Below are positions 40,259 through 42,208 of a stretch of 64,000 bases of DNA, in pieces (the first letter of the stretch is position 1; each line of letters begins with the position of its first letter). Source of the stretch: Hyphobacterium sp. CCMP332 (GTDB lineage Bacteria > Bacteroidota > Bacteroidia > Cytophagales > CCMP332); the NCBI GenBank assembly GCA_014323545.1, contig CP058647.1:1590001-1654000 (forward strand), written 5' to 3'. The notes below the pieces were generated by a model. The model was given only the letters and a program-made list of their open reading frames with translations, ran no database searches and was not told the origin of the DNA. The translations under genes were made by a program, and so were the position numbers.

Positions 40259-41362
40259 CTAAAAGATTCGAATTAGCTTTCTTCTGATTTTGACTCCAGA
40301 AAAATTCATCTCCAGAATATAAATACCGGCGGTGGTATTACTCAGATCTATGTTTATCGATTTTGAATTGGGAAGTGCAGAATATATTTCCACACCCAAT
40401 TCATTGAATACCTTTAGTACATCTGCTCTTCTGCTCGACTTCACATTGAAAATACCCATTTGCGATGGATTGGGATAAACAGTAAAATCATTGGAATTAA
40501 TTTCAGGAATTCCGGCCACAATTTCTGGTTTCCAAACCAGACCTAAACTATCACCAAATAGATATTCTGCCAATTCGGGATAATCGATAAAGGGATTTTT
40601 ATTACCCTGGTAACTGTAAATAACCTGGTTTCTGTTGCGCTCAAATCCATCTACCGTATCCTCGCGATTCCATGCCAATAAAGTGTTTAATGTGGCGTGA
40701 AGCGGGGTTTTGGAAGTATTGCTTTGTAAGGTATTGGTCAATTCGAGATCGGGTTCCGAACCATCGCCTTCGTAGCGCAGGGCCATGTAAAAAATCATCC
40801 TGGCAATATCGCCTTTAACATTTACCGGTGGTTCAAAAATATAAAGATTGGCATCGGTTTTCGAACCGGTATTGAATCCATTGTCAATAACATCTATACA
40901 GCTAATGCAATTGTCAAAATTTCTGTTGTTTCTTGTGGAATTGACGCTTACATCGCAAGGTCTTAAATGGTGCACATCGGTACCCGCACCCTTGGAAGTG
41001 CCAAAATCACCACGGCTTTTCGCCCATACATGTTCCCTGCTCCAACCCGCTCCGCTATTGTACTCCTGTGCCGCATTGACACTGCGGTTAGAATAAATAA
41101 GAATGACATTATTGGAATCGTTGGGGTCGCGATCGGTTTCTTTAAGGATGTCCCAGACATCAGTACCGGAAGAAGTATAGGTATATTCTGTATGGCCTTT
41201 TATAATATTGTATAATCTCGATTTCAAAGTATCGCCCGAGGAATTAAATGCACTTTGATAATAGACCGAATCCTGAGCCTGTGCGTACAAGAAAGGAAGC
41301 AACATAAGAACAATCAGAAATGTCCTTTTTAATGAAATGAAATTAGTTTGCCTTTTTTTCAA
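40259..41362 (-). CDS. Secreted endonuclease I with T9SS tail
   Basis: 367 residues. Signal peptide with a long n-region (LKRTFLIVLMLLPFLYAQA). The endonuclease I/EndA catalytic core is GWSREHVWAKSRGDFG, GTDVHHLRPCDVSVN and RNNRNFDNC, a beta-beta-alpha metal nuclease site. The C-terminal 80 residues (FTVYPNPSQMGIFNV to RRKLIRIF) form a T9SS type A sorting domain. It likely degrades external DNA or RNA for nutrients or competition. Two direct repeats flank a promoter box upstream. Confidence 0.9.
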   Translation of the reverse strand: MKKRQTNFISLKRTFLIVLMLLPFLYAQAQDSVYYQSAFNSSGDTLKSRLYNIIKGHTEYTYTSSGTDVWDILKETDRDPNDSNNVILIYSNRSVNAAQEYNSGAGWSREHVWAKSRGDFGTSKGAGTDVHHLRPCDVSVNSTRNNRNFDNCISCIDVIDNGFNTGSKTDANLYIFEPPVNVKGDIARMIFYMALRYEGDGSEPDLELTNTLQSNTSKTPLHATLNTLLAWNREDTVDGFERNRNQVIYSYQGNKNPFIDYPELAEYLFGDSLGLVWKPEIVAGIPEINSNDFTVYPNPSQMGIFNVKSSRRADVLKVFNELGVEIYSALPNSKSINIDLSNTTAGIYILEMNFSGVKIRRKLIRIF

Positions 41363-41409: not shown

Positions 41410-41727
41410 TGATATTAGGTATTTATACAGTAGAATGTAGAAAAAGATGAAATTAACGGCTTATTAGAAGTGCAGCGGCTGATTAAGCATGAAATTATTT
41501 GTAATTAAATATCTACAAAAAACACTCCTCTGGCTTTTCAGAGAAGGTTGTTGTACCCGGTGCCATTCTACCTTGCCTTCGCGCCGAGCCAATTTAAACC
41601 TTCGGCGGTATTTGGAATCCGCTTCGGCCAGGCAAGGCGCCAAAACTTCGAATGGCAAGCGGGACTAATAACACTTACATTTTCTGTAAATAAAGAAACC
41701 TCCCTAGAACTAACTAAGAAGGTTTTT
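41410..41727. repeat. Intergenic region with long GC-rich imperfect palindrome
   Basis: No gene is supported here. At 41561-41660 lies an imperfect palindrome with outer arms TGCCATTC/GAATGGCA and inner arms CTTGCC/GGCAAG, then GCC/GGC pairs. It contains a GCTTCGGCCAGGCAAGGCG stretch like the one inside the broken tRNA copy downstream. Open frames across it are chance products of the palindrome. No transposase is present, so it is a small non-autonomous or REP-like element. Confidence 0.6.
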
Positions 41728-41900
41728 GTACTCGGGGCCCATCTTCGCCAAGGCTTCGATCGGCAAGCTAGACTTCCCACCTACTCCCGGAACAAATCCA
41801 GGATCCGGTAGGCAGGGAACCCGCACGGCCTTAACGGCTATCCCAATGGGACGTGCTTGTCAACCTCGATTGCAATCGGGACAGGTTCCATCTACAATCT
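41728..41900 (-). pseudogene. Broken tRNA-Leu copy split by GC-rich palindromic DNA
   Basis: Two blocks match the intact tRNA-Leu at 41961-42045: an 11-bp block GTACTCGGGGC at 41728-41738 (3' acceptor end) and a 22-bp block at 41817-41838 (variable arm and T-stem start: ACCCGCACGGCCTTAACGG). About 78 bp of foreign sequence (TCTTCGCCAAGGCTTCG, CGGCAAGC and others) separates them, where the intact gene has 6 bp. Beyond the second block the anticodon arm is unrecognisable and a palindrome CGATTGCAATCG appears. It cannot fold into a tRNA and is called a remnant. Confidence 0.65.
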
Positions 41901-41908
41901 CTTTAAAT

Positions 41909-41951
41909 AAAAAAAGTGAAAACGGAATTCTTTTTAATTCTCATTCTCACT
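41909..41951 (-). terminator. Terminator after tRNA-Leu
   Basis: On the minus strand AGTGAGAATG pairs with CGTTTTCACT (ten pairs, two of them wobble) and is followed by seven T. It starts 10 bp after the tRNA-Leu 3' end. Confidence 0.75.
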
Positions 41952-41960
41952 CTTTAAAAG

Positions 41961-42045
41961 TACTCGGGGCGGGACTTGAACCCGCACGGCCTTAACGGCC
42001 ACAGGATTTTAAGTCCTGCGTGTCTACCAATTCCACCACCCGAGC
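41961..42045 (-). tRNA. tRNA-Leu (anticodon TAA)
   Basis: 85 nt with acceptor stem GCTCGGG/CCCGAGT, D-arm with GGTAGACA, anticodon stem CAGGA/TCCTG with loop CTTAAAA (anticodon TAA), a long variable arm GGCCGTTAAGGCC as expected for a class II tRNA, and T-arm GCGGG-TTCAAGT-CCCGC. CCA is not encoded. It is downstream of tRNA-Gly on the same strand. Confidence 0.93.
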
Positions 42046-42047
42046 TT

Positions 42048-42082
42048 GTCTTCGCTGAAGCTTCGACAAGCGCGGCTTGTCA
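42048..42082. repeat. Short GC-rich palindrome between the tRNA genes
   Basis: CTTGTC, GACAAG and CTTGTC segments with GCTTCG in the middle form a small hairpin-prone repeat between tRNA-Gly and tRNA-Leu. It resembles the palindromes at 41561-41660 and inside the broken tRNA copy. Confidence 0.45.
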
Positions 42083-42134: not shown

Positions 42135-42135
42135 G

Positions 42136-42208
<73 letters not shown>

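Follow-up and report, generated by a model that had tools for sequence, protein, structure and literature searches.

What breaks a copy of a tRNA gene at several points and places a hairpin or a palindrome at every break? The question is raised by the window considered here, that is, the whole stretch of 64,000 nucleotides (G000:C1:1590001-1654000, G000 being this genome, a single contig of 3.33 Mb that by gene content and relatives appears to be from Bacteroidota). All features of the locus described below are on the minus strand. Two tRNA genes are intact, tRNA-Leu(UAA) at 41960..42045 (ARAGORN; Rfam RF00005, 60.2 bits) and, upstream of it, tRNA-Gly(GCC) at 42135..42208 (ARAGORN; Rfam RF00005, 66 bits). 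They are the only matches above threshold in an Rfam scan of the window, where the RtT covariance model was unmatched. The original prediction, made from the sequence of the window, was that a second copy of tRNA-Leu split by GC-rich palindromes lies just downstream. The copy is real: an alignment permitting long inserts scores 67, the maximum of 200 shuffles being 39, which rules out a chance origin. It is also indeed downstream, lying 3' of a tRNA gene that is read from the minus strand. The prediction relied on two recurring blocks, which do recur in the same order: a 22-bp block, GAACCCGCACGGCCTTAACGGC, at 41817-41838 in the copy and 41978-41999 in the gene, and an 11-bp block, GTACTCGGGGC, at 41728-41738 and 41960-41970, respectively. 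The distance between them is 78 bp in the copy, as predicted, and 7 bp, rather than the predicted 6, in the gene. The copy is larger than these blocks and spans tRNA nucleotides 18-86 approximately.

Hairpins or palindromes interrupt the copy in its D-arm, anticodon arm and T-loop and on the 3' side of its T-arm. On the D-loop side there is a palindrome, TCCCGATTGCAATCGA (41866..41881, from sequence reading and alignment), which resembles the TCCCGATNNATCGGGA inserts of genome G002. It is followed by a fragment aligned with tRNA nucleotides 18-29 (41854..41865, 10/12 identical) and by a short hairpin, TCCCATTGGGA (41839..41853, alignment and folding), that replaces the anticodon arm. The 22-bp block (41817..41838) matches nucleotides 47-68 without mismatches (22/22). 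The 78-bp spacer consists of three parts. Firstly, a 41-nt hairpin, CCTGCCTACC...GGTGGG, starting with CCTGCC, interrupts the T-loop at TTC^AAG (41776..41816, MFE -22.8 kcal/mol). Secondly, there are five tRNA bases, AAGTC, aligned with nucleotides 69-73 (41771..41775) and too short to stand alone. Finally, a second hairpin insert (41739..41770, motif scan and folding) contains the tRNA-locus motif CTTCGCCAAGGCTTCG at 41743-41758. The 11-bp block (41728..41738) equals nucleotides 76-86 (11/11 identical), and in the model proposed below it is the displaced native 3' end. These fragments form no second working tRNA.

Further hairpins surround the locus. Leader hairpins are found directly 5' of tRNA-Leu (42046..42082, motif scan and folding), with CTTCGCTGAAGCTTCG at 42050-42065; this is the palindrome with GCTTCG that had been noted between the two tRNAs. 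The other such region, a GC-rich palindromic block (41545..41672), might be seen as an older decayed 3' copy (AGTCCCGC...CACCGGGTAC by eye), but its alignment is not significant: 41561-41660 scores 25, the shuffle maximum being 36, so that by itself it is not significantly tRNA-like and a second tRNA copy there is unsupported. A segment of 52 bp from this block recurs at 311520 with 90% identity. The gene beside the tRNA locus (40259-41362, minus strand, 367 aa) encodes a protein resembling secreted nucleases of the endonuclease I type, with a sorting domain at the C-terminus.

The arrangement is not confined to tRNA-Leu(UAA). In this genome, of which the tRNA loci and a few other stretches were covered, the 600-bp flanks of 34 tRNA entries (Thr(GGU) appears twice due to overlapping loci) were searched for partial copies of the tRNA that they flank, defined as exact matches of 10 nt or more on the same strand, with flanks swapped between tRNAs as the control. 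Partial copies, typically split by hairpins, were found near 16 of the 34 tRNAs, compared with 17/272 for swapped flanks (Fisher p 5e-9); the reverse-complement control yielded partial matches for 1/34. The values for two other genomes of the family are 12/37 and 13/25, compared with 13/296 and 15/200 (p 1e-6 and 2e-7). Swapped flanks rule out a chance origin of such copies in general and, together with the number of tRNA loci involved, a purely local accident. Fragments starting from nucleotide 1 are upstream of the tRNA, and fragments reaching the 3' end are downstream of it; this polarity is expected from any duplication with one breakpoint inside the tRNA, if one intact gene is kept. The split copy of tRNA-Arg(UCU) reads GGTTCCATAGCTCAACTGGATA, then CCTGCCTGCCGGCAGGCAGG, then GAGCAACTG; that of tRNA-Leu(UAG) reads ..GGTAGAC, then CTGCCTGCCGACAGGCAGG, then CGCACTAGA; and that of tRNA-Asn is TCCCCCTTAGCTC followed by a hairpin.

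A genome-wide search for the palindromic units had been suggested with the original prediction. The motif CTTCG-N5-GCTTCG occurs four times in 3.33 Mb, always beside tRNA genes, two of the copies being in the window (41743 and 42050). The 20-nt palindrome, with at most three mismatches, has six genomic occurrences, four of them at tRNA loci. With four and six copies genome-wide, mostly at tRNAs, a dispersed REP family is ruled out.

Tandem arrays of roughly 100-210 bp abut tRNA-Pro(GGG) (L072), tRNA-Thr(UGU) (L055), tRNA-Arg(ACG) (L070) and tRNA-Met(CAU) (L062), and the flanks read at these four arrays contain no nuclease gene. In the tRNA-Pro(GGG) units, GGATGTAGC pairs with GCTACATCC. An upstream partial copy of tRNA-Pro(UGG) with a hairpin is common to this genome and G001, which represent two genera (L088 and L143). 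Between the two genomes the same C-G to T-A change is seen in the hairpin and in the tRNA, hinting at either constraint or gene conversion.

No transposase or integrase had been seen at the locus, and the window contains no GIY-YIG gene. However, at four other tRNA loci of this genome there is a small ORF within about 310 bp of the tRNA that matches the GIY-YIG domain (Pfam PF01541, E 1e-12 to 1e-16), and in relatives such an ORF is found at tRNA-Leu(UAA) itself. At tRNA-Arg(UCU), where its coordinates are G000:C1:449358-449582, and at tRNA-Ser(UGA), it has the split 5' copy on one side and the intact tRNA on the other. Three other small GIY-YIG genes of this genome are UPF0213-like and are not at tRNAs. 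A truncated remnant of the tRNA-linked subfamily (G000:C1:879837-879992) is not beside a tRNA. At the tRNA-Arg(UCU) locus (L091) the GIY-YIG frame enters the intact tRNA (..YWFHSSTG), with the stop codon inside the tRNA gene, and upstream it reads through the split copy and the palindrome (..STGYLPAGRQGA..). As this frame crosses both the tRNA and the split copy, similar entries in public protein databases may carry translated tRNA ends.

Homologues of the four ORFs were collected by a genome-contig search with alignment. The best 80 of 343 relatives come from Bacteroidota, Patescibacteria, Omnitrophota, Nitrospirota and other phyla, and 71 of these best 80 are at most 400 bp from a tRNA, the nearest one always on the same strand. 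The commonest spacing places the tRNA 6-40 bp downstream of the nuclease match. In the control UPF0213-like family, 0/27 are near tRNAs (p 6e-18). A partial copy of the same tRNA is present on the far side of the nuclease in 47 of 57 loci of the upstream type (45/456 with swapped tRNAs) and in 10 of 20 of the downstream type (8/160 with swaps). The commonest point of insertion into the copy is ..TA^G (A21|22, D-loop; 17/55), and the insert is often exactly CCTGCCTGCCGGCAGGCAGG, a 20-mer common to loci from Bacteroidota, Patescibacteria and Omnitrophota. Most inserts (45/54) fold better than shuffled sequences at p<=0.05. A TTTGC promoter-like motif precedes the partial copy in 11 of 42 cases and the rebuilt copy in 1 of 42; these numbers are small, but the preference is consistent with insertion inside a tRNA gene.

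The residues Y5, Y16, G18, R26, H30 and E62 are invariant in all 85 aligned proteins. The ORFs are thus members of the GIY-YIG nuclease superfamily and may cleave DNA. The closest solved relatives by sequence are UPF0213 proteins (PDB 1zg2 and 1ywl, E 5.5e-7); these differ from the present family in lacking a link to tRNAs, as seen from the count of 0/27 for UPF0213-like genes in this genome and relatives of it. On the nuclease tree, which is built from few alignment columns and has many unresolved forks, lineages cluster by tRNA isotype across phyla: the isotype changes 26 times, compared with a mean of 39.8 for shuffled isotypes (0 of 200 shuffles as low). A tRNA-Leu group, for example, includes Omnitrophota, a Wolfebacteria bin and two Bacteroidota families, and a tRNA-Ala group, Nitrospirota and Myxococcota bins, where bins may contain foreign contigs. 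Upstream and downstream placement gave no clear signal against this tree.

A consensus probe for the subfamily, run over 59 genomes, matched at the orthologue of this tRNA-Leu(UAA) locus in G035 and G032, both members of the order. In G035 the intact tRNA-Leu is followed by a terminator, a GIY-YIG ORF and then ..GTGACCAATTGGTCTTGCGGG, CCTGCCTGTTGCAGACAGG and TTCAAGTCCCGCTCCTGGTAC. There (L301, 541-1660) a 345-bp unit stands three times in tandem, and every unit includes the GIY-YIG ORF, a terminator and the 3' half of tRNA-Leu interrupted by a palindrome. In G032 this arrangement is present as a single unit, where the interruption at the corresponding position is CCTGCCTGCCGGCAGGCAGG. In this assembly the upstream tRNA-Leu(UAA) beside the GIY-YIG ORF (L302, about 1380-1560) stops at ..GGGTTCAAGT, without a 3' end, and ARAGORN calls no tRNA-Leu at the site; this may reflect an error of assembly or a tRNA gene that is truly split.

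An empty site, which had been proposed as a check, was found at tRNA-Leu(UAA): G049 has plain tRNA-Gly and tRNA-Leu with no element, while its genus-mate G035 is occupied, these being different species and not strains of one. A RAYT-like ORF was seen by eye directly downstream of tRNA-Leu(UAA) in G049 (L303, about 1290-1700). For tRNA-Arg(UCU), an empty site was sought in G001, where the tRNA order differs. The same interrupted copy with intact folding in sister genomes had been named as evidence against the original prediction, and this was seen in part: G001 has 3' fragments at tRNA-Leu(UAA), although they form no second working tRNA. Among the loci examined in the first relatives search, G001 and G035 alone have such fragments; given those of G001, the insertion may predate the genus.

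The copy in the window is of the same downstream type as those of G035 and G032 and is broken in the same arm, at TTC^AAG, 3 nt from GGG^TTC, with the nuclease absent. By analogy with these two genomes, the window locus is probably a nuclease-less relic of a homing-type element that invades tRNA genes and rebuilds its target tRNA; the cleavage and mobility of such an element are what we infer. It would be a relic rather than a full member, and a nuclease gene would once have been present in it. A GIY-YIG endonuclease of about 77 residues would cut the tRNA gene in a conserved arm, either in the D-loop at ..GGNTA^GAGC or in the T-arm near GGGTTC. The block copied in during repair would contain, besides a short palindrome at the cut edge, the nuclease gene, part of that tRNA and whichever half of it is missing, so that an intact tRNA would be rebuilt on one side and the original fragment, split by the palindrome and no longer cuttable, would be left on the other. 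D-loop events would leave 5' pieces upstream, giving native(1-22)-palindrome-(23..n)-nuclease-(1-22)native(23-76), and T-arm events 3' pieces downstream, giving native(1-62)(63-85)-terminator-nuclease-(34-62)-palindrome-native(63-85). Tandem duplication, further palindrome insertions and loss of the nuclease could later produce a scar such as that of the window.

In the upstream and downstream types alike, the palindrome borders the displaced native half of the tRNA, and the half required to rebuild the tRNA is at the end of the element. This is the layout expected from insertion at a cut site by an element that carries a repair piece. The cut site and homing by the nuclease are predictions of this model, and the palindrome may be a lock against re-cutting. 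Repeated palindrome insertion at a tRNA duplication, as originally proposed, agrees with the duplication, the multiple insertions and the concentration of palindromes at tRNA genes, but the pattern is genome-wide and extends over several phyla. The palindromes are real as well; rather than the palindrome by itself, the evidence favours a larger mobile unit, made of a palindrome, a partial tRNA and a nuclease gene, of which the window keeps a part.

Several facts do not fit this homing model easily. The GIY-YIG gene is absent from the window and is kept at only 4 tRNA loci of this genome, compared with about 16 that are scarred. The palindrome site in the window is 3 nt off that of G035 and G032. 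The rebuilt intact tRNA retains the uncut site; one possibility is that recognition requires the native flank, so that the rebuilt tRNA would be spared by its own nuclease. Finally, the palindromes vary by lineage, and one copy can contain several of them, a pattern not expected from a single homing event.

The last point is better accommodated if ordinary tandem duplication produced the partial tRNA copies and REP-like palindromes, moved by Y1/RAYT or other transposases, entered them, the GIY-YIG genes being passengers. Palindrome sequences are indeed lineage-specific (CCTGCC.. or TCCCGAT..), several per copy are possible, and the genome has two Y1_Tnp genes, one about 640 bp from a tRNA. However, the palindromes are not dispersed; there are few of them, and they cluster at tRNAs. 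Passengers would leave unexplained the one-strand tRNA linkage of 71 of the best 80 of 343 homologues, the copies of the same tRNA across the nuclease gene and the clustering of isotypes. We consider this explanation unlikely. It is rather less likely that the hairpins are RNA insulators, selected after duplication to break or sequester a partial copy that would otherwise mispair or be processed. In favour of this, the hairpins track the tRNA sequence, as in the paired tRNA-Pro(UGG) change between G000 and G001 and the tRNA-Pro(GGG) pairing described above, and the promoter is often with the partial copy. Insulation would not account for the nuclease, for one fixed 20-nt sequence occurring in several phyla at a single site, or for the absence of the structure from most tRNA-Leu loci of the order.

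The 5'/3' polarity and the regular-period tandem arrays abutting several tRNAs could be produced by replication slippage or unequal recombination, since any breakpoint inside a kept tRNA gives such polarity. The repeats would then be tyrT-like and the hairpins decayed sequence. As most inserts form hairpins significantly better than shuffles, and as this account covers neither the recurrent insertion site and sequence nor the nuclease linkage, we regard it as very improbable. Phage relics were rejected, as the phage-record matches listed are the tRNA genes themselves; IMG/VR contained only five weak relatives of the nuclease, and no tRNA lies less than 2.5 kb from any of them. About 640 bp from tRNA-Val(GAC) of this genome there is a Y1 (RAYT-like) transposase gene (L310, G000:C1:2796258-2796494). 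Y1 genes near tRNAs are a possible second source of palindromes.

The homing-type element has parallels among known systems. SegB of T-even phages is a free-standing GIY-YIG homing endonuclease, without an intron or intein, that is statistically linked to tRNA genes of many isotypes, and its cutting followed by recombination leads to tandem amplification of the tRNA plus segB unit (PMC13096335). The present nucleases share the linkage to many isotypes, and the G035 array is much like the SegB arrays in its amplification. However, SegB is a phage protein, whereas the present genes are mostly in cellular genomes, encode proteins of about 77 aa that comprise hardly more than the catalytic domain, and are accompanied by a palindrome-split copy of the target tRNA. 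In fungal mitochondrial mORFs (Allomyces atp6, Glomus atp9 and cox2), an endonuclease ORF brings a duplicate gene end that rebuilds the invaded gene, while the displaced native end stays behind the ORF; the end supplied is in many cases divergent and of foreign origin, and hairpins are not mentioned (PMC3630166). Again, the invaded gene is rebuilt by an ORF-borne end and the native end is displaced, but mORFs invade organellar protein genes, whereas here bacterial tRNA genes are invaded from either end. The present system thus works like a combination of SegB and mORFs in bacterial chromosomes, with the palindrome added.

Other likenesses are more distant. REPs are dispersed in many copies; the palindromes considered here are likewise short, GC-rich and extragenic, but few and concentrated at tRNA genes, and there is no Y1 gene at the window locus. 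The 178-bp tyrT repeats of E. coli (rtT RNA) are tandem, downstream of the tRNA and each contain the tRNA 3' end, as the units described here do; to our knowledge, they lack a nuclease and their tRNA piece is not interrupted by a hairpin, and the Rfam RtT model is unmatched here. Integrative islands at tRNA genes also leave a displaced tRNA 3' fragment beside a restored tRNA. However, the gap between tRNA-Leu and the displaced fragment in the window is about 120 bp of non-coding DNA with no integrase, the units are about 100-450 bp long, 5' fragments are as common as 3' ones, and there are palindromes inside the fragments. Rickettsia palindromic elements are palindromes inserted in-frame in protein genes of Rickettsiales.

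The consulted parts of the GIY-YIG survey of 2006 give no sign of linkage to tRNA genes (PMC1564403). An association of GIY-YIG genes with tRNAs in bacterial chromosomes is undescribed in the open literature searched, most subscription journals and bioRxiv being outside its scope. Tentatively, a new class of bacterial mobile element may be proposed, comprising minimal GIY-YIG homing elements that would invade many tRNA isotypes across phyla and rebuild the tRNA. Their conserved palindrome, placed at a set point in the D- or T-arm, would act either as a lock or as the site recognised, and nuclease-free palindrome derivatives, spreading beside them, would reshape tRNA loci genome-wide.

Transfer RNA genes are essential and are usually viewed as landing sites for large integrase-borne islands. 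The loci described here point to a much smaller selfish element, present in several phyla, that would cut tRNA genes and survive by repairing them. Such an element would account for the puzzling palindromes, tandem repeats and tRNA fragments found close to tRNA genes in bacteria, and would suggest what a set of small genes annotated as GIY-YIG nucleases is likely to do. It would also offer a chromosomal parallel to phage SegB and would supply compact nucleases whose lineages apparently differ in the target tRNA.
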